Part shown: positions 31,793 to 43,220 of the stretch, one piece after another
Layout: every line of letters starts with the position of its first letter
Numbering within the stretch: position 1 is the stretch's first letter
Origin: Microlunatus soli
GTDB taxonomy: Bacteria > Actinomycetota > Actinomycetes > Propionibacteriales > Propionibacteriaceae
Direction: 5' to 3'
Assembly: GCF_900105385.1 (NCBI RefSeq)
Contig: NZ_LT629772.1
Span: 4,898,001 to 4,962,000, forward strand
Length of the DNA: 64,000 nucleotides
Notes under the pieces: generated by a model
The model's input: only the letters and a program-made list of their open reading frames with translations
Told to the model about the DNA's origin: nothing
Databases searched by the model: none
Translations under genes and position numbers: made by a program

Positions 31793-32779
31793 GTGGCCAA
31801 GCACACACCGGGGTCGGAGACCAGAGCGCAGCCGGCGAACCCGTTGCAGTTGATCACCGACGCGTTGCCACGGCTGCGCGGTGGCACCGCACGGGTGGCG
31901 CGGACGATCCTCACCTCTCCCGACGAGATCGCTGCTGGTTCGATCACCCGGTTGGCGGCGGCCGCCGACACCGCGCCGGCAACCGTCACCCGGCTCGCCA
32001 CCCACCTCGGCTTCGACGGCTACCCGGCTCTCCGGGCAGCGATCGCGCGGGAATCGGGACGGGCCGCCCAATCGGCCTGGGAATCCGACATCGGCTCGGC
32101 GATCGCACCGGGCGATCCGGCCGACAAGGTCCTCAATGTGCTGGCCAGTACCGAGGTGAACGCACTCCGCAATGCTTTGGCCTCGATCGACCTGGCGGCG
32201 GTCGAGCGGGCGGCCGATGCGATCGCGGCGGCCGAGCGGGTGCACGTCTACGGCGAGTGGGGCGACGCCATCCCGGCGCAGGAGCTGTCCATCCGGCTGC
32301 TGAGGATCGGGGTCCCGGTCTGGTTCCACGATGGCAACCAGTCCTCTCGGATCGGAGCCGGGCTGCTGTCCACCGGCGACGTCGGCATCGTGGTGGCTCG
32401 GTCCGGAAACGACCCGATCGCCGAGGAATTCGTCCGGCTGGCGTCGGCACAGGGGGCGACCACCGTGGTGATCACCGGCGAGGTCGATTCCGCGGTGGCC
32501 GGGGCCGGCGACATCGTGCTGTTCACCGGCACCCGCAACGGGCGGATCTGGACCGAGTTCTTCGCCGGCCGTGCCAGTGACGTGTTGACCGCCGGACTGC
32601 TCTTCGTGCTGGTCGCCCAGCGAGTTCCCGATCGGGTCGCCGCTCACAACCCGTATGGCCCCGAGCACCCGTTCGCCGGCCCGGCTGCCGGCCAGACCGG
32701 CATCGACGACCTGCCGACAACTCTGCCGCAGACCTTGCGGGTGGAGATCGACGAACCCCTTCCGACCGACCGGAGATGA
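31793..32779 (+). CDS. RpiR/MurR-family transcriptional regulator with SIS domain
   Basis: A 328-residue regulator. The N-terminal RpiR helix-turn-helix includes SITRLAAAADTAPATVTRLATHLGFDGYPALRAAIA. The C-terminal SIS domain binds a phosphosugar: VHVYGEWGDAIPAQELSIRLLRIG and VVARSGNDPIAEEFVRLA. The GTG start has AGGAGG upstream. A ~35-residue C-terminal tail follows the SIS domain. It is embedded in the operon and probably controls it, perhaps through the inverted repeat at 27180. Confidence 0.92.
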   Translation: MAKHTPGSETRAQPANPLQLITDALPRLRGGTARVARTILTSPDEIAAGSITRLAAAADTAPATVTRLATHLGFDGYPALRAAIARESGRAAQSAWESDIGSAIAPGDPADKVLNVLASTEVNALRNALASIDLAAVERAADAIAAAERVHVYGEWGDAIPAQELSIRLLRIGVPVWFHDGNQSSRIGAGLLSTGDVGIVVARSGNDPIAEEFVRLASAQGATTVVITGEVDSAVAGAGDIVLFTGTRNGRIWTEFFAGRASDVLTAGLLFVLVAQRVPDRVAAHNPYGPEHPFAGPAAGQTGIDDLPTTLPQTLRVEIDEPLPTDRR

Positions 32780-32784
32780 CAACG

Positions 32785-35022
32785 ATGAAGACCGAGTCCG
32801 TACACAGCGACATCACCGTGATCGGCGGCGGCCTGGCCGGCGTCTGCGCCGCCATCGGAGCAGCCCGCAACGGATCCGAGGTCGCGCTGATCCAGAATCG
32901 GCCGGTGCTGGGCGGCAACTCGTCCAGCGAGGTCCGCGTCTGGGTCTGCGGTGCCACCGCCCACGGGGTGCAACACTTCGCCCGGGAGACCGGCGTGATG
33001 GGCGAACTCTTCGTGGAGAACCAGTTCGTCAATCCCGAAGGCAATCCGTACTACTGGGATCTGACGGTCTTGGAGGCGGTCCGGGCCGAGCCGAGGATCA
33101 CGCTCTACCTGAACACCGACGTCCGCGAAGTCGCCGCCGACGGCCCCGACGATGCGCGGGTGATCAACTCCGTCACCGGCTGGCAGATGGGCTCGGAGAA
33201 GTTGATCACCTTCACCAGTGACCAGTTCATCGACTGCAGCGGTGACGGTCTGATCGGCCTGCTGGCCGGCGCGGAGTATCGCACCGGCCGTGAAGCCCGT
33301 TCCGTCTACGACGAGTCCTGGGCGCCGGAGGTGCCGGACAACAATACGCTGGGCAGCACGATCCTCTTCTACAGCAAGGACATCGGCCAGCCGTCGAAGT
33401 TCGTCCCGCCGTCCTTCGCCAAGGACATCGTGGCCGCCGGCATCCCCGAGCACCGGGTGATCCGCACCGACATGAACGGCTGCGCCTTCTGGTGGATCGA
33501 GTGGGGCGGCGAGTACGACGTCGTCGATGACAACGAACAGGTCCGCGACGAACTGCAAGGCGTGGTGTACGGGATCTGGGACTACATCAAGAACTCCGGC
33601 GAGTTCGATGCCGACAATCTCACCCTGGAGTGGATCGGTTCGGTGCCCGGCAAACGGGAGTATCGCCGTTTCATCGGTGATCATGTGCTGACCCAGGCCG
33701 ATGTGCTGGGACAGACCCCCTTCGAAGACCGGGTCGCCTTCGGCGGCTGGTCGATCGATCTGCACCCGCCCGGCGGTGTCTACGCCACCGAACGCGGATC
33801 CAAGCACTGGCACCCGGACGGCAACTACCACATCCCGTTGCGGAGCCTGTATTCGATCAATGTCGGCAACCTGTGGATGGCCGGCCGCAACATCAGCGCC
33901 TCGCATGTCGCCTTCGGCACCACGCGGGTGATGGCGACCTGTGCGGTGATCGGCGAGGCCGCCGGCATCGGCGCCTCGGTCGCAGCCCGGGACGGGTTCA
34001 CCCCGCGGCAGCTCGGGCACGAAGAGTTCTACCGCGTCCGTCGGGCCATGCTGCGGGCCGATGCGTCCACCCTCGGGGTCCGCAACGACGATCCCGATGA
34101 TCTTGCCCTGACCGCTCGTGCGTCGGCGTCGTCGGTGCTGCGCCGGGTGTCGGTGGAGGAGCCCGCCGACCGGTATCGGTTGGACGCCGCGCTCGGGATG
34201 GTGGTGCCGGTAGGGGGACGGTTCGGCGGGATCGAGGTGCTGCTGGACGCCGACGAGGACACCGAGCTCGGCTGTCAGCTGCACGATCCGCTCAAGCCGC
34301 AGAACTACCTGCCGCTGAAGCTCATCGAGAAGACCACCGTTGCTGTCCCGGCGGGGGAGAAGCAGTGGGTCCGCTTCGAGCTCGACTGGACCCCCGAGCA
34401 GCCGCAGAACGCGTTCCTGGTCTTCGCCGCCAACCCCGCGATCTCGGTGCACACCGCCGAACAGAGGGTCACCGGCAGCATCCTGCTGGGGCATCGCGAG
34501 CCGGCTGCCGACGAGCAGTACACCGAGCAGTTCCGCAGCTGGAAGCAGGTGCTGCATCGCCAGGGCCTGTGTCACCGGCTGCTCGAGCCGACCGACGTGT
34601 TCGAACCGGAGCAGGTGATCGGCGGCTACGCCCGTCCCTACGGCGGCCCGCAGCTGTGGTCCTCGGAATCGCTCGCGCTCGATCCCGAACCGTGGATCGA
34701 GTTGGGCTGGGACCAACCACAGAGCATCGCCGAGCTGGTGATCATCTTCGATGACGACGTCGAGGAGGACCTGATCAACCTGCATCACCATCGGACGCCG
34801 TTCGATGCACTGCCCAGCGTCGTCCGCGACTATCGGGTCGAGGCTCGGGTCGACGGCCGGTGGCAGTCGGTCGCGTCGGTCGAGGGCAACCATCGCCGGC
34901 ACGGACGGCACCGGTTCGCCGATCCGATCGGTACCGATCGGATCCGGGTGGTCGTCAGTGCGACCAACGGCGCCGACCAGGCGCACGTGGTGGCGATCCG
35001 CGCCTACGGTCAGAGCCGCTGA
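32785..35022 (+). CDS. FAD-dependent oxidoreductase (FAD-oxidored type) with C-terminal beta domain
   Basis: A 745-residue flavoprotein. The Rossmann FAD site is ITVIGGGLAGVCAAIGAARNG (near residues 8-28) followed by VLGGNSSSEVRVWVCG, typical of the FAD_oxidored family. Near residue 370, LWMAGRNISASHVAFGTTRVM is the second FAD contact. The last ~140 residues (FEPEQVIGGYARPYGG to the end) look like a discoidin-type carbohydrate-binding beta-sandwich. I prefer ATG 32785, 9 bases after GGAG; an ATG at 32776 overlaps the RpiR stop. The protein probably oxidises a sugar or sugar acid. It overlaps the convergent siderophore-binding gene by 13 bases at its 3' end. Confidence 0.85.
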   Translation: MKTESVHSDITVIGGGLAGVCAAIGAARNGSEVALIQNRPVLGGNSSSEVRVWVCGATAHGVQHFARETGVMGELFVENQFVNPEGNPYYWDLTVLEAVRAEPRITLYLNTDVREVAADGPDDARVINSVTGWQMGSEKLITFTSDQFIDCSGDGLIGLLAGAEYRTGREARSVYDESWAPEVPDNNTLGSTILFYSKDIGQPSKFVPPSFAKDIVAAGIPEHRVIRTDMNGCAFWWIEWGGEYDVVDDNEQVRDELQGVVYGIWDYIKNSGEFDADNLTLEWIGSVPGKREYRRFIGDHVLTQADVLGQTPFEDRVAFGGWSIDLHPPGGVYATERGSKHWHPDGNYHIPLRSLYSINVGNLWMAGRNISASHVAFGTTRVMATCAVIGEAAGIGASVAARDGFTPRQLGHEEFYRVRRAMLRADASTLGVRNDDPDDLALTARASASSVLRRVSVEEPADRYRLDAALGMVVPVGGRFGGIEVLLDADEDTELGCQLHDPLKPQNYLPLKLIEKTTVAVPAGEKQWVRFELDWTPEQPQNAFLVFAANPAISVHTAEQRVTGSILLGHREPAADEQYTEQFRSWKQVLHRQGLCHRLLEPTDVFEPEQVIGGYARPYGGPQLWSSESLALDPEPWIELGWDQPQSIAELVIIFDDDVEEDLINLHHHRTPFDALPSVVRDYRVEARVDGRWQSVASVEGNHRRHGRHRFADPIGTDRIRVVVSATNGADQAHVVAIRAYGQSR

Positions 35023-35999
35023 AGGTACGGCTCGAGGTCGTCCAACAGGGCAGGGATGCTCAGCACGGTAGGAATGTTGTAGGCCGTCACCCAGGTCAGG
35101 TCGACCTGGTCGGCGGTCTTCTTCCGCACCGGTGTCAGTCGACTGAAGATCGGATCCTTGGCCAGTTTCGCGGCCAGCTCGGGGCTGCTCGATCCCATGA
35201 TCACCAGGTCGACGTCGTTCAGATCGGTGAAGCGTTCCTTGGACAGCACGACCCGGGGCTCGGAGCCGGCTCCGGGTAGCTTGGCCAGCCTCAGTCCGAG
35301 GCTGCGCAGGAACAGTGCCGAGGACGCGCTGTCGCTGTTGGTGCAGACGAATTCCGAGGAGCTGAGGAAGTTGCCCAGCTGCACGGTCTTGCCGGCGATC
35401 TGCGGGTTGTCGCGCTTGACCCGGGCGATCTTCGCCAGCACCTGGTCGACGACCTGCCGGGCCCGGTCGGCGCGGCCGGTCGCCTTGCCGATGGTCAGTG
35501 CGCTGGACTGCCAGGTGGGCACCTCGGCGTTGTCGTCGGTGTTCAGCGCCAGCACCACGGTCGGCGCGATCTTCTTCAGCTTGGCATAGGTCGCTGCGTC
35601 GACCTGGTAGTCGCTGCCGATGATCAGGTCAGGTGTATAGCCGGCGACCTTCTCGGCCGGGATGCCGTCGAACGGTGGGATCGCGTACACGGCGCTGTTC
35701 TGCTGGTCGATCTTCCCGTCGGCCCACGGGCCCAAGGGTGTGCCGGGCTTCGGCCCGCCGATCGGGGTGAGTCCGATCGCGGCCGCGGTCTCCACCAACT
35801 GGTCGTTGAGCAGCACCACCCGCTGTGGCTGCTTGTCGATCGTGATCGGTCCGTTGACCGACGGCAGCGTCACCGGGAATCCGCCACCCGCCGATCCGGT
35901 GGCTGTCTGCGGGGTCTCCGAACCGGCCCCGCTGCTGCAGCCTGCCGTCAGCAAGACGATTCCCGACATCAGCCCGACCATCTGCCGTCGCTTCACCAT
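35010..35999 (-). CDS. Iron-siderophore ABC transporter substrate-binding lipoprotein
   Basis: A 329-residue lipoprotein with lipobox LLTAGC near residue 21 and a Gly/Ser linker. Family motifs of the periplasmic-binding (FecB/FepB) fold include PQRVVLLNDQLVETAAAIGLTPIGG, TPDLIIGSDYQV and KIAPTVVLALNTDD. No permease or ATPase gene is adjacent, so it is an orphan receptor. A DtxR/IdeR-type box lies 19-38 bases upstream of the ATG, so expression should rise in iron starvation. The long N-terminal linker is usual for lipoproteins of high-GC Gram-positives. Confidence 0.92.
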   Translation of the reverse strand: MVKRRQMVGLMSGIVLLTAGCSSGAGSETPQTATGSAGGGFPVTLPSVNGPITIDKQPQRVVLLNDQLVETAAAIGLTPIGGPKPGTPLGPWADGKIDQQNSAVYAIPPFDGIPAEKVAGYTPDLIIGSDYQVDAATYAKLKKIAPTVVLALNTDDNAEVPTWQSSALTIGKATGRADRARQVVDQVLAKIARVKRDNPQIAGKTVQLGNFLSSSEFVCTNSDSASSALFLRSLGLRLAKLPGAGSEPRVVLSKERFTDLNDVDLVIMGSSSPELAAKLAKDPIFSRLTPVRKKTADQVDLTWVTAYNIPTVLSIPALLDDLEPYLQRL

Positions 36000-36017
36000 G
36001 AACCCCCAGACAAGATC

Positions 36018-36037
36018 AACTTAGGTCAGCCTAAGTT
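36018..36037. promoter_or_regulatory. DtxR/IdeR-type iron box
   Basis: AACTTAGGTCAGCCTAAGTT is a perfect 8+4+8 palindrome with the TTAGG...CCTAA core of DtxR/IdeR sites. It lies 19 bases before the siderophore-binding protein start on the minus strand. Iron-loaded DtxR/IdeR would repress here. Strong match to known consensus; regulator itself not in the window. Confidence 0.85.
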
Positions 36038-36088
36038 AGCATGATACGAGTGGCCGTGGGTGGCGTGTTCGACAATCGGGATCGAGCA

Positions 36089-36107
36089 GCCGGCAGCCGC
36101 TGCCGGC
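36089..36107. repeat. Perfect 19-bp palindrome
   Basis: GCCGGCAGCCGCTGCCGGC, 9+1+9 with no mismatch. It lies 52 bases beyond the iron box. Purpose unknown. Confidence 0.7.
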
Positions 36108-36138
36108 AACCGGTGGCAAGGCCGACGATGACGGCCCA

Positions 36139-36160
36139 GATCCCTGTTGACACAGGGATC
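36139..36160. repeat. 9+4+9 hairpin flanked by 8-bp direct repeats
   Basis: GATCCCTGT, TGAC, ACAGGGATC form a perfect hairpin. GACGGCCC stands on each side (36130-36137 and 36161-36168). The arrangement could be a compound operator or the trace of a small insertion with target duplication. Confidence 0.65.
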
Positions 36161-36229
36161 GACGGCCCGATGTGATGTGCACGACATCGGCCGGATCCGA
36201 TTTGATCCGCCGGCTGTCGCGGCCCTACT

Positions 36230-36245
36230 ATTTCGACGTCGAAAT
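36230..36245. repeat. Perfect 16-bp palindrome
   Basis: ATTTCGACGTCGAAAT, fully self-complementary and much richer in A/T than its surroundings. Looks like a dimeric protein site; regulator unknown. Confidence 0.65.
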
Positions 36246-36251
36246 CGATCG

Positions 36252-36403
36252 GGTTCTCCGAAAACGGGGCGACGAAACCCGGCGCTCGCGCCGACCCCAC
36301 ATCCCTCCGGGCTACCCGGAGAACCACATTTCCCAGCCCGGAACGGGCAGTGCACACAGCTATGCCGTCGCGCGCTCTTGCGCGCCACGGCACGGGTCCG
36401 TGC
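36252..36403 (+). ncRNA. Candidate structured RNA or leader element
   Basis: GGTTCTCCG (36252-36260) pairs perfectly with CGGAGAACC (36317-36325) around a segment holding CGGCGC-TC-GCGCCG (36280-36293). CCGGG-CTA-CCCGG (36307-36319) competes with that outer stem. Downstream are GCCCG-GAA-CGGGC (36336-36348), a 6+1+6 stem with TCTT loop (36363-36392) and GCACGG-GT-CCGTGC (36390-36403), the last two mutually exclusive. Competing folds are what a riboswitch or attenuator would show. GC richness makes chance hairpins common, so this is tentative; strand assumed from the downstream gene. Confidence 0.35.
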
Positions 36404-36540
36404 GCCCTGCTCACCATGATCATCCAGGACGCTCCGCACGGTGCGCCCATGATCAACTGCGCCCTCGTCGAAGCCGATGTGAACGCGACCGGGACGGGCC
36501 CAACTTCACAGCCCAGCAGAGTGTTCGTCGGCCACCGGGG

Positions 36541-37227
36541 GTGGCAGAAAGCAAGATCGAAGTGATCGTCGATGTCCTTGGTTGGACGGCCGGTGTCTAT
36601 GGCGCCTGCGTCGCCCTGCCGCTGATCGCGCGGGTCGCCCGGACCCGCTCCACCGCCGGAATCTCCCGACTCTCCTGGCAGTCCAGCCTGGCCAGCAACC
36701 TGTCCTGGGTGTCCTACGGCGCCATCACCCACCACATCAATCTCTGGCTGCCGTGTCTGTTGGTCTCGGTCTGCGCGGCCGGCATGTTGATCATGATCGA
36801 ACGGGATCGTCGCCCGCTGTCCGGCGGCGTGGTCCGCCGCCGGTTCGGGGGACTGGACGGCGGTGCGATCATCCGCACCTTCTGCCTGCCGGCGGCGGCC
36901 GCGCTGGTCGCCCTCACGCTGGCGGCGACCGTCGGGTCGTTGGCGTTCGCGGTTGCGGTCTTCATCGCCGCGTCGGTCGCTCAGTTGCTGCAGCTGCGCA
37001 GCCTGATGGTCTGCCGCGACATCTCCGCCATCTCGGTGCCGTACCTGGCGATGGGGGTGATCGGCCAGCTGCTCTGGTTCAGCTGGGGACTGCTTGCCGA
37101 CGACATCTCCAACCAGCTGGTCGCCGGCTTCCTGATCGTGCTGACCACGGCAAACCTGGGCTGCTACGCGCTGCGCCGCTCCGGCGTACGGCCGAGGCCG
37201 TTCGCCACCAGAGTTGTCAGAACGTAG
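36541..37227 (+). CDS. PQ-loop/SemiSWEET-like membrane protein
   Basis: A 228-residue integral membrane protein with seven or so spans. Two repeated units are visible: WTAGVYGACVALPLIARVARTRSTAGISRLSW near the N-terminus and LLQLRSLMVCRDISAISVPYLAMGVIGQLLW near residue 150. Each resembles a PQ-loop three-helix bundle, although the PQ dipeptide itself is replaced. Such proteins move sugars, amino acids or cofactors. The start is uncertain (GTG 36541 or GTG 36562); neither has a strong ribosome site. It follows the palindrome-rich region, which might regulate it. Substrate unknown. Confidence 0.7.
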   Translation: MAESKIEVIVDVLGWTAGVYGACVALPLIARVARTRSTAGISRLSWQSSLASNLSWVSYGAITHHINLWLPCLLVSVCAAGMLIMIERDRRPLSGGVVRRRFGGLDGGAIIRTFCLPAAAALVALTLAATVGSLAFAVAVFIAASVAQLLQLRSLMVCRDISAISVPYLAMGVIGQLLWFSWGLLADDISNQLVAGFLIVLTTANLGCYALRRSGVRPRPFATRVVRT

Positions 37228-37268: not shown

Positions 37269-37299
37269 TTGCTGCCGAGCGGTGTCGGACGGTGATAAT
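37269..37299 (+). promoter_or_regulatory. proA promoter, apparently leaderless
   Basis: TTGCTG (37269-37274) and GATAAT (37294-37299) are spaced by 19 bases. The -10 box ends 6 bases before the GTG start at 37306, so transcription would begin at or next to the start codon. No Shine-Dalgarno is present, consistent with a leaderless mRNA. Confidence 0.5.
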
Positions 37300-37305
37300 T
37301 GTCGG

Positions 37306-38559
37306 GTGACCGAACAGAACCCGGCCGCCGTTGCCGATCTCGCCCGCAGGTCCCGGATCGCCGGCCGTTCGCTGGCCGGCGCGAATCGCGGTGTCAAGGA
37401 CCGCGCGCTGCACGCCATGGCCGATGCGTTGGCCAAGGCCGAGGACGCGGTCCTGGCGGCCAACGAGTCCGATGTCGCCGCCGCCGAGCAGGCAGGGACG
37501 GCACCGGGGCTGGTCGACCGGCTGCGACTGGACCCGGGGCGGGTCGGTGGGATGGCCGACGGACTCCGCGCGTTGGCCGGGCTGCCCGATCCGATCGGTG
37601 ACGTCGTGCGCGGCTGGACCAATCCGAACGGCGTCCAGGTGCGACAGGTCCGGGTCCCGCTCGGGGTGGTCGGCATCATCTACGAGGCCCGTCCCAACGT
37701 GACCGCCGACGCGGCCGGGATCTGTCTGAAGTCGGGTAACACCGTGCTGCTCCGCGGCTCGTCCTCGGCCGCCGCTTCCAATGCCGCCGTGGTGACCGCG
37801 CTGCGCAGTGGGATCCGGGCCACCGGCCTGCCCGCCGACGTCGTCCAACTGGTGCCAGGGCCGCGAACGGTGACCGATGAGCTGATGGCGGCCCGTGGCC
37901 TGGTCGATGTGCTGATCCCGCGGGGAGGTGCAGGGCTGATCGATCACGTCGTCGGCAACAGCCGGGTGCCGGTGATCGAGACCGGGGTCGGCAACTGTCA
38001 TCTGTATGTCGATGCCGACGCCGACACCGAGATGGCGCTGGAGATCATGATCAACGCCAAGGTGCAGCGGCCGAGCGTCTGCAATGCGATCGAGACGCTG
38101 CTGGTGCATCGGGAGATCGCCGAGGACTTCCTGCCGGCAGCGCTGCGCCGGCTCGCCGAGGCCGGCGTCACGGTGCACGGTGATGAACGGGTGGCCGGCT
38201 ACGGCACCGTTGTCCCGGTCACCGACGAGGACTTCGGCACCGAATACAACTCCCTCGATCTCGCCGCCGCCGAGGTCGACTCCCTGGATGACGCGATCGA
38301 CCACATCCGGCGCTACAGCACCGGGCACTCGGAGACCATCGTCACCGACTCCCAGTCGGCGGCCGCCCGGTTCGTCGCCGAGATCGACGCGGCCGCGGTG
38401 CTGGTCAACGCCTCCAGCCGATTCGTCGACGGCGGCGAATTCGGGTTCGGCGCCGAGATCGGCATCTCCACCCAGAAGCTGCATGCCCGGGGACCGATGG
38501 GGCTGCCGGAGATGACCAGCACCAAATTCGTCGTCAGCGGAGCCGGTCAGATCCGCTGA
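37306..38559 (+). CDS. proA: Gamma-glutamyl phosphate reductase
   Basis: A 417-residue NADPH-dependent enzyme for the second step of proline synthesis. Hallmarks are [34 protein letters not shown], the catalytic Cys259 in [14 protein letters not shown], and the C-terminal [23 protein letters not shown]. Length is standard and the protein looks intact. Start GTG 37306 has no ribosome site and a -10 box close upstream. Its partner proB ends at 684, about 36.6 kb away; the two share no operon here. The 3' end overlaps the convergent DUF418 gene by 26 bases. Confidence 0.97.
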
Positions 38560-39742
38560 CGACGGCTTCGCGCTCCGGCTGCGGCTTCGACAGCACCCGG
38601 TCCAACCCACTGTTGATCTTGTCGTAGCACCAGGTCCAGGCAAGCTCGACCGGACCACGGGCGAAGCGCAGCTGCCAGAGTGCTGCGAACAGTGCGATCA
38701 GGACCGCGGTGGCGGCGAAGATGATCATCGTCCCCGGGACCCGCCACTCGTCCGACATCCTGGTCGCCAGGCCGAATCCCCAGCCGTAGCAGAGGATCGA
38801 CGCGATCAGGTTCTGGGCGACGTAGCTGCTCAGGGCCATCCGGCCGATCTGCTCGAGGCGGCGGCTGAACCAACCGGCCCGGGTCCGCAGCACGATCTCG
38901 GTGACCAGCGCGAGCAGCCCGAGCGAGACCAGGGCGGCCGTCGTGTATCGACCGAAGAGTACGCCGTCCGAGCCGCCGACCACCTGGATCACGAAGTCGA
39001 CGACGAAGCCGGCACCGCCGATGATCATCAGTCGCCGACGGAGCATCGCGCCGGCCGGCTCCAGGACGCCGGCGCGGAGCAGCCGCGCGCCGAGCAGGAA
39101 CATGAAGATCGAATAGCCGGTGATCAGGATCGGCTCGAGTCGGAAGATCCCCGGGTTCTGGACCCGGAGCAGCAGCAGGTCCCACCAGCTGCCCTCGGCG
39201 TAGACGTTGGTCCGCATCGGGGGATAAGCGGCAGTTCCGGGCTGGGTGATCAACAGGACCGTCAAGGCACTGATCACCAGCACGTGCACCGATCCGGTGA
39301 CGATCATCCAGGTCCGCTGAGCTCGATCACTGGTCACCACCAGATAGGAGACGACCGCACCGGTGACCGCGTATCCCATCAGGACGTCGAACTCGACCAC
39401 CAGGACGTAGTGCAGCACCCCGTCCAACAACAGCAGCGCCGCCCGCCACGGATAGCGGCCCGGCCAGGGCCGACCGCGCCGTATCGCCGACCGCCGCTGG
39501 ATCTCCAGTCCGATCCCGAACATCAGGGTGAGCAGCCCGAGGAACTTGCCCTGGGCGAGTTGCTGCAGCACCTGGCCGATCGCTGCCCAGCCGGCCGGCG
39601 TGCCCGGCGGGATCGGTGCGGCAAGGTAGCCGAGCAGGCCGTACGGATTGGTGAAGAGCCAGACATTGGTGCCGAGGGTGCCGAGAATCGCCAGGCCGCG
39701 CAGGACGTCGAGGGAACGGAGGCGCTGTGCAGGAGGCGTCAT
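38534..39742 (-). CDS. DUF418-family membrane protein
   Basis: A 402-residue integral membrane protein. It opens [24 protein letters not shown], the usual start of the DUF418/YeiB group, and ends with a conserved segment ([26 protein letters not shown], then [10 protein letters not shown]). About ten hydrophobic spans. Function of the family is unknown; transport or acyl transfer has been proposed for relatives. I chose ATG 39742; TANNNT-type TACGCT lies 7 bases upstream on the minus strand, so the mRNA may be leaderless. It is divergent from a TetR gene with a perfect palindrome between. Confidence 0.9.
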
Positions 39743-39755
39743 GACATCCAGCGTA

Positions 39756-39771
39756 CAATACGACCGTATTG
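39756..39771. promoter_or_regulatory. Perfect 16-bp palindrome, likely TetR operator
   Basis: CAATACGACCGTATTG (7+2+7) lies between the divergent DUF418 and TetR starts and overlaps a TACAAT -10-like box (39754-39759). Typical placement for TetR autorepression and control of the divergent gene. Confidence 0.7.
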
Positions 39772-39788
39772 GTGAGAGGATCTGGCCC

Positions 39789-40391
39789 ATGCCCGACGCA
39801 TCCAAGCCCGAATCGACTGCCGCTCCCCGGGACCGGCTGCTCGATGCCGTCGTCGAGCTGATGCTGGCCGACGGGTTCGAGGGCGTCAGCGTCCGGCGGG
39901 TCGCCACCGCTGCCGGGGTGTCGATCGGCGCGGTGCAACACCATTTCCCGACGAAGTCGGCGATGCTGGCGGCCGCGATGGACCGGGTCTCTGACCAGTT
40001 CACCGCTCGCCTGCAGTGCAACGCCGAGGGCCAGCAGGATCCGGAGCTGCTGCTGCGCGCGGTCCTCACCGAGTTGCTCGGCGCCGGGGAGGAACGGCGC
40101 CCTGGGACGGTGATCTGGCTGCAGCGGCTGGCCCGGGCCGCCGTCGACGAGCAGGCGGCCGCAGCGCACGCCAAGGACTGGCGGGACATCGAAGCACTGA
40201 TCGCCGAACTGCTGCGGCAGTGTCGGCCGGACAGCGAACCGAACTGGCGCCAGGACATGGCCGCCGACCTGCTGGGCCTGCTGGACGGGTTGGCGGCGGC
40301 CCTGGTCACCGAGCCGGACCGGATGCCGCGGGACCGGGCCGAACGGCTGCTCGACCGACGCCTGCGCGAAGTCCTCGGTACGGGACGGTAG
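39789..40391 (+). CDS. TetR-family transcriptional regulator
   Basis: A 200-residue repressor. The helix-turn-helix is VSVRRVATAAGVSIGAVQHHFPTKSAML at about 36-63. ATG 39789 follows GAGAGG by 9 bases. Its own promoter contains the palindrome at 39756. It most likely represses the divergent DUF418 membrane-protein gene. The GVSIGAVQHHF form resembles BetI-like regulators. Confidence 0.9.
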   Translation: MPDASKPESTAAPRDRLLDAVVELMLADGFEGVSVRRVATAAGVSIGAVQHHFPTKSAMLAAAMDRVSDQFTARLQCNAEGQQDPELLLRAVLTELLGAGEERRPGTVIWLQRLARAAVDEQAAAAHAKDWRDIEALIAELLRQCRPDSEPNWRQDMAADLLGLLDGLAAALVTEPDRMPRDRAERLLDRRLREVLGTGR

Positions 40392-43147: not shown

Positions 43148-43220
43148 GGGGCTTTGGCGCAGTTGGTAGCGCGTTTCCATGGCATGGAAAAGGTCAGGGG
43201 TTCGAATCCCCTAAGCTCCA
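43148..43220 (+). tRNA. tRNA-Ala, anticodon GGC
   Basis: A 73-base cloverleaf. The 7-bp acceptor stem carries the G3:U70 wobble that defines tRNA-Ala. D stem GCGC/GCGC, anticodon stem TTTCC/GGAAA around loop ATGGCAT, giving anticodon GGC for codon GCC. T arm AGGGG-TTCGAAT-CCCCT. Discriminator A73; CCA is not encoded. A terminator hairpin follows within 20 bases. Confidence 0.97.

Follow-up and report, generated by a model that had tools for sequence, protein, structure and literature searches.

Inverted repeats upstream of a SWEET-like transporter gene of Microlunatus soli: a probable control region with a predicted MarR-family operator and a small candidate stem at the ribosome site

Background

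Is a GC-rich intergenic stretch with many inverted repeats a structured RNA locus, or do its repeats belong to the promoter and leader of a neighbouring gene? The question is raised by positions 36038–36540 of a 64,000 nt window (the whole stretch of DNA analysed) from Microlunatus soli, which an earlier note, made from the sequence alone, had described as one structured non-coding locus, and as a possible new RNA class or regulatory hub. The genome consists of one contig of 6.73 Mb (G000, contig C1), and was compared with 19 further genomes of the genus and with the family (198 genomes). The surroundings of the stretch are as follows.

35010–35999, minus strand: gene for the binding protein of an Fe-type ABC transporter (Peripla_BP_2 match)
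36018–36037, minus strand: 8-bp dyad AACTTAGG tcag CCTAAGTT before the Fe-type ABC gene
36038–36561: probable control region of the SWEET-like transporter gene, mainly promoter, predicted operator and 5′ leader
36562–37227, plus strand: SWEET/PQ-loop-type membrane protein of 221 aa with a GTG start (PF03083)

Results and discussion

The transporter gene and its relatives

The protein to the right of the stretch is indeed PQ-loop-like, as the earlier note had proposed, since it contains an MtN3_slv domain (PF03083) above the curated score (E 1.9e-8, 34.7 bits, cut-off 23.7), with a SemiSWEET_2 match at E 3.6e-10 that is below the cut-off of that model. Using a profile of three genus proteins, relatives of this transporter were detected in 100 of the 198 family genomes and in 6/20 genus genomes (G000, G003, G008, G010, G012 and G016); these six, own genome included, were treated as orthologues, with profile scores for G008, G010 and G016 that were much lower than those for G000, G003 and G012. 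When GTDB contigs were scanned with the alignment of the three proteins, a single distant locus (L026) was obtained, which was left out. An N-terminal extension of the transporter from a GTG at 36540, in a reading frame that is open in the window, was rejected, as this region is out of frame in G012 and contains stops in G010. There is also a short frame ending in ...WQKARSK-stop (36450–36565), the TGA of which overlaps the transporter GTG in G000 and G003; it was rejected as a leader peptide or coupling frame, with no ribosome site seen before it by eye and no stop in G012.

The proA gene follows the transporter gene, and a GATAAT sequence at 37290–37310, a short distance ahead of the region where proA begins, points to a separate promoter for proA, with a leader that is very short or absent. 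On the other side, the dyad at 36018–36037, which we take to be an iron-box-like element of the DtxR/IdeR type, is part of the divergent neighbour and lies outside the transporter control region.

Inverted repeats and folding energy

Every inverted repeat in the earlier list is present in the sequence. Three have 9-bp arms (36089–36107, 36139–36160 and 36252–36260/36317–36325), 36230–36245 has 8-bp arms, and the remaining five have arms of 5–6 bp, with the listed 36307–36319 being the inner portion of a 7-bp stem at 36305–36321. We counted perfect arms of ≥8 bp with a spacer of up to 60, using as background 905 windows of the same size from twenty 20-kb stretches of the own genome plus the window outside the locus. 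There were five such repeats in the region (background mean 1.27, sd 1.24), with five or more present in 18/905 windows, and three repeats with arms of ≥9 bp. The palindromes are therefore real, yet only mildly unusual in number, and the same applies to the supposed excess of perfect 9-bp arms: three are present, but three or more also occur in 12/905 windows.

A similar picture was obtained for folding energy. The plus strand of the stretch gave a z-score of −3.57 (0/100 shuffles as low) and the minus strand −2.60 (1/100 shuffles as low). The 64 kb around the stretch has a bias of its own (mean z −1.17, sd 1.31, 160 windows), and the window starting at 36001 on the plus strand was the lowest of these 160 (z −4.41, 25 shuffles each). 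The stretch does fold lower than its shuffles, a comparison that the earlier note had proposed, but z ≤ −3.57 is reached in 8/160 windows of the 64 kb, the studied region among them. When examined in 120-nt steps, low energy was found in two separate places, one upstream of and across the promoter (36078–36237, z −3.50 and −4.24) and one within the leader (36278–36437, z −4.46 and −3.09). With approximately 40% of its length preceding the inferred start of transcription, the stretch is not one structured unit.

Promoter region and its conservation

The following features were assigned to the promoter region.

36171–36186, plus strand: Crp-like block TGTGATGTGCACGACA (TGTGATCTGCGTGACA in G003, CGTGATCTGCGTGACA in G012)
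36202–36207, plus strand: −35-like sequence TTGATC (TTGATT in G003, TTGTCG in G012)
36226–36231, plus strand: −10-like sequence TACTAT, 18 nt after the −35-like box (TAACAT in G003, TAATAT in G012)
36230–36245, no strand: 16-bp perfect palindrome ATTTCGACGTCGAAAT, predicted MarR-family operator, overlapping the −10-like box
36238–36561, plus strand: inferred 5′ leader of the transporter transcript, with a length of 324 nt for a start at 36238

A DNA search with the region (E up to 0.01) gave matches in 8/20 genus genomes, own genome included, which were located at the locus itself only in G003 and G012, the matches in the other genomes being elsewhere and 28–37 bases in length. Alignment of G000, G003 and G012 contained three conserved blocks, at 36171–36186, at 36226–36245 and over the last 30 bases ahead of the start codon. 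G003 is without approximately 80 bases that are present in the window between ~36423 and ~36502, and a direct repeat CCATGATCA (36414–36422 and 36447–36455) is found at one edge of this segment. None of the three repeats with 9-bp arms was retained as a conserved structure in G003 and G012, the two nearest relatives, where each is broken or missing: 36089–36107 is broken by the aligned G003 bases and absent from G012, 36139–36160 is broken in G003 (with some outer pairs kept) and absent from G012, and the left arm of 36252–36260/36317–36325 is not kept in G003.

The block at 36171–36186, which resembles the Crp consensus (TGTGA-N6-TcACA), has three mismatches to the G003 form in the window, a match as good as this being expected 0.67 times in 64 kb, and it is a weak candidate for an activator site ~60 nt before the inferred start. 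A scan for sigma-70-type consensus sequences found no site at the 9-of-12 threshold, with the TTGATC/TACTAT pair scoring 8/12 by eye, and we infer a transcription start at 36238 from the −10-like box.

A predicted MarR-family operator at the transporter promoter

A single exact copy of the palindrome ATTTCGACGTCGAAAT is present in the own genome, at the transporter promoter, with a one-mismatch copy at C1:1783010 and a two-mismatch copy at C1:3947866 that is inside open frames; approximately 0.0007 exact and 0.035–0.036 one-mismatch sites are expected from dinucleotide frequencies. The site at C1:1783010 is flanked on one side by a MarR-family gene (PF12802, E 7.2e-11) and on the other by a divergent MFS gene (PF07690, E 1.7e-34).

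C1:1782461–1782985: MarR-family gene, with the near-copy of the palindrome upstream

Among the 198 family genomes, the exact palindrome was present in two (G000 and G012), both times at the transporter locus. At the transporter promoters of the six genus relatives it was found in three (exact in G000 and G012, two mismatches in G003), and there was no palindrome in G008, G010 and G016; the transporter promoter sequences are TACTATTTCGACGTCGAAAT, TAACATTTCGGCGTCGAGAT and TAATATTTCGACGTCGAAAT.

Close orthologues of the MarR protein were detected in 16/20 genus genomes, the other four having weak matches only. The palindrome was present upstream of MarR in five of these 16 orthologues, with one mismatch to 36230–36245 in G000 and G003, two in G008, three in G012 and four in G004, and the upstream stretches examined for the other 11 contained no palindrome within four mismatches. 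Its presence at the promoter of MarR itself thus appears to be a property of the own species and some relatives, not of the whole genus, and the absence from 11/16 orthologues means that another protein may bind here. All three carriers of the transporter site are among the five genomes with the MarR site, and G008 contains a MarR site and a transporter relative with the transporter site absent, so that the link between MarR and transporter would hold in 3/6 relatives and be broken by G008. The neighbour divergent from MarR was examined in 9/16 genomes. In G000 it was an MFS gene, and inspection by eye gave the same assignment for G003, G004 and G012; an MFS neighbour was not recognised in G008, nor in four examined genomes without the palindrome. 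The divergent MarR-MFS regions of G000, G003, G004 and G012 have TANTATTTCGAYRTCGAAG in common. At transporter and MarR/MFS promoters alike, the palindrome covers the last bases of a TANNAT hexamer.

The degenerate pattern HYTTCGAYRTCGAARN was found in 23 places in 14/20 genus genomes, comprising two transporter sites, five MarR sites and 16 others. Thirteen of these 16 were examined, and each was overlapped by an open frame; two places, in G012 and G004, were in what is by eye the same gene. An open frame in GC-rich DNA does not settle whether the DNA is coding, and such an overlap does not mark these places as chance occurrences, because the MarR site is also overlapped by open frames. The other places may be either chance occurrences or further targets in other species.

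Taken as a whole, a DNA operator accounts better for the palindrome than an RNA element does, and it is probably the site of a MarR-type repressor. Among the papers searched, none contained the core TTCGACGTCGAA, and none was found on autoregulation by MarR next to a divergent MFS transporter gene.

The MFS leader (L024 1580–1640; also L064, L065 and L066) displays a strong hairpin with TTTGT or TTTCGTT after it, as in CCCGACACCGG-gat-CGGTGTCGGG. Inspection by eye showed this hairpin in G000, G004 and G012, and in G003 in a less clear form; the stem sequences differ, and it is a possible attenuator.

The 5′ leader and the question of a new RNA class

The leader and ribosome site of the transporter gene contain the following features.

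36305–36321, plus strand: 7-bp hairpin CTCCGGG cta CCCGGAG, with the same stem in G003 and none recognisable in G012
36350–36405, plus strand: long imperfect hairpin, unrecognisable in G012
36531–36545, plus strand: hairpin GCCACCGGGGGTGGC, immediately 5′ of the ribosome site
36546–36551, plus strand: Shine-Dalgarno-like AGAAAG, conserved (AGAAGG in G016), 10 nt before the GTG at 36562

The predicted leader of the own genome (36238–36561) folds with a z-score of −2.91 (1/200 shuffles as low), and the values for G003 and G012 were −3.84 and −1.61, the latter being slightly better than shuffles. The leaders of G016, G008 and G010, with starts set at a −10-like box judged by eye, folded no better than shuffles (z +0.69, +0.52 and +0.43). 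The inferred length ranges from ~118 to 324 nt across the six relatives, and the last stem and the ribosome site were the only parts for which an alignment of all six was found. Large leader hairpins were common only to G000 and its nearest relative G003: at the base of the hairpin at 36350–36405, 14 pairs are kept between these two sequences, with five varying, none broken and one compensatory change, and the tip is longer in G003, in a comparison of two sequences only. A multi-helix structure with compensatory changes was not found, and across the six relatives only one 5-bp stem covaries.

At the gathering score, the one match of the window to Rfam 15 was a tRNA at 43148–43220, and there was none in eight related loci. 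Relaxing the threshold to E up to 5 gave six matches, to animal, archaeal, Pseudomonas and Xanthomonas families, all far below the gathering scores and none credible. A scan for terminators (hairpin with T-run) gave no site in the leader, where an intrinsic-terminator attenuator was consequently not found; its two hits were a weak one overlapping the promoter and one within the iron box, on the opposite strand. Among the papers searched, none joined PQ-loop and riboswitch. There is hence no good evidence for a new RNA class, given that there is no Rfam match at the locus, the listed repeats with 9-bp arms are not conserved and the distant leaders fold no better than shuffles. The term regulatory hub applies in a plain sense only, to an iron-box-like dyad, a promoter, a predicted operator and a 5′ leader next to each other.

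In other genera, a −10-like box was located by eye at most ~10 bases from the start in at least 5/21 upstream regions (three truncated loci were left out), and the long leader may therefore be a feature of the genus. In these five (L033, L034, L036, L041 and L049), the box is TAGGCT-like and is present within ~10 bases of the transporter relative, which suggests that these transporter mRNAs are leaderless.

A small candidate stem at the ribosome site

The transporter gene had been considered to lack a good ribosome site, but AGAAAG is present at 36546–36551 and conserved, and we take it to be Shine-Dalgarno-like through pairing with the anti-Shine-Dalgarno sequence. A 5-bp stem is possible in 6/6 genus relatives, ending 0 or 1 base before AGAAAG. 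In a test with only six related sequences, with rows cut to begin at the stem, all 30/30 cells were paired (one counted pair in G010 uses a non-adjacent base), six cells were compensatory, and 2/5 pairs had compensatory changes, pair 3 being C-G in three sequences, A-U in two and G-C in one, and pair 4 being A-U in three and G-C in three. The covariation score was 0.533 vs 0.180, with 0/500 shuffles as high, and 0/500 shuffles reached the percentage paired or the number of compensatory cells. Two of the five measures were no better than shuffles, namely pairs changed on both sides (204/500) and pair types (399/500). As background, a perfect stem of ≥5 bp ending at AGAARG was found at 6/213 sites in 464 kb, and under a looser rule a stem ending 13–20 nt before the start was found for 42/437 putative gene starts with a ribosome-like site, a rule outside which the G010 loop of 10 would fall.

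The stem was part of the lowest-energy fold in 5/6 relatives with the last 45 nt plus the start codon, and in 6/6 with 60 nt before and 30 nt after. It was found in 1/6 whole-leader folds (G003), and in 2/6 (G003 and G016) with 60 nt of the gene added; in the window sequence it is present in the local folds and absent from the whole-leader fold. A stem at the ribosome site is thus supported by comparison of the relatives and would be a candidate structure for the full mRNA, and it is here that the compensatory changes which the earlier note had proposed to look for were found, in a stem that is absent from its list of repeats.

A model for the control of the transporter gene and its alternatives

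We favour, as the probable explanation, that the stretch is mainly an ordinary control region of the SWEET-like gene, which encodes a sugar-transporter-like protein, and comprises a promoter, a predicted MarR operator, a possible Crp-like site and a long leader with a small candidate stem. Transcription of the transporter gene at 36562 would be driven by the promoter TTGATC, 18 nt, TACTAT, and the operator ATTTCGACGTCGAAAT would overlap both the −10 box and the start point. It would most likely be bound by the MarR-family repressor encoded elsewhere at C1:1782461–1782985, which would likewise bind the near-identical operator between its own gene and the divergent MFS gene. Upon contact of a ligand with MarR, the repressor would let go and both transporters would be made. 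The transcript would carry a long GC-rich leader of the predicted extent, in which the small stem before AGAAAG may tune translation, if it forms and acts in the full mRNA. The palindrome, its MarR/MFS copy, its conservation and the compensatory changes of the small stem were computed directly. The low energy of 36278–36397 (z −4.46), for which this explanation does not account, counts against it.

Alternatively, the leader 36238–36561 could be a cis-acting RNA switch that forms alternative structures, two competing states of which one contains the ribosome-site stem, and that controls translation of the transporter according to a ligand or condition. The leaders of G000 and G003 fold better than shuffles (z −2.91 and −3.84), the hairpin at 36350–36405 keeps 14/14 counted pairs in G003 with five varying, the ribosome-site stem has compensatory changes, and its bases pair elsewhere or are open in 5/6 whole-leader folds and in 4/6 folds with 60 nt of the gene, as exclusive states would. 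However, lowest-energy folds of long GC-rich leaders are unreliable and competing pairings are therefore expected by chance, the fold scores fall to −1.61 in G012 and to +0.69, +0.52 and +0.43 in G016, G008 and G010, the leader length varies (~118–324 nt) with only the last stem and ribosome site aligning, and there is neither an Rfam match at the locus nor a terminator-like site in the leader; we consider such a switch unlikely. A combined version, in which the stem and the lineage-variable leader form a genus-specific two-state cis-RNA, alternating between the local stem and long-range pairing, that tunes translation of the two-repeat SWEET protein atop a MarR-controlled promoter, is quite improbable, and if true would mean that one substrate is sensed twice.

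The palindrome could alternatively be the operator of another regulator, with the MarR/MFS copy as its second target. Two candidates are encoded within 5 kb of the palindrome.

31793–32779: RpiR-like protein, candidate rival regulator
~39651–40391: TetR-family protein, candidate rival regulator

Against this, such a palindrome is located directly before the MarR gene in five genomes, which is a usual place for the site of a self-regulating MarR, and in G012, with the exact palindrome, the neighbouring gene differs from the neighbour in the window, making another regulator an improbable choice. Least probable, in our view, is that this is a GC-rich intergenic stretch with somewhat many hairpins arising by chance, and with no function beyond that of a promoter. 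The equal number of repeats in 18/905 windows, the 8/160 windows that fold as well relative to shuffles and the lack of conservation of several listed repeats are consistent with it, but the second copy of the operator and its conservation are far above the expected number, and the ribosome-site stem has compensatory changes.

Implications and comparison with known systems

To our knowledge, little is known of the bacterial substrates of the SWEET-like family, and at this locus a regulator and a partner gene can be proposed for one such transporter and put to the test. If MarR does control both the MFS and the SWEET-like gene, both proteins may handle one compound. The locus also illustrates that an intergenic GC-rich stretch with many palindromes can come down to a single operator and a single small stem when relatives are compared.

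Three known systems are relevant here. Translational riboswitches and RNA thermometers have structured 5′ leaders in which a hairpin adjoins the Shine-Dalgarno sequence, and the transporter leader resembles them in having a small conserved stem with compensatory changes before the ribosome site; unlike in those systems, the stem does not include the ribosome site, a larger conserved core was not found, and the remainder of the leader varies across the six relatives. DtxR/IdeR iron boxes are represented by the dyad at 36018–36037 before the Fe-type ABC binding protein gene, although this dyad belongs to the divergent neighbour and not to the transporter gene. The closest parallel to the predicted operator is provided by the autoregulated operators of the MarR family, which stand in the intergenic region of marR and a divergently oriented transporter gene. 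The 16-bp palindromic site before the MarR and divergent MFS genes is placed in the same way, with a near copy at one further promoter; the difference is that this further target is a SWEET-like transporter gene elsewhere on the chromosome, where the operator is a predicted one.
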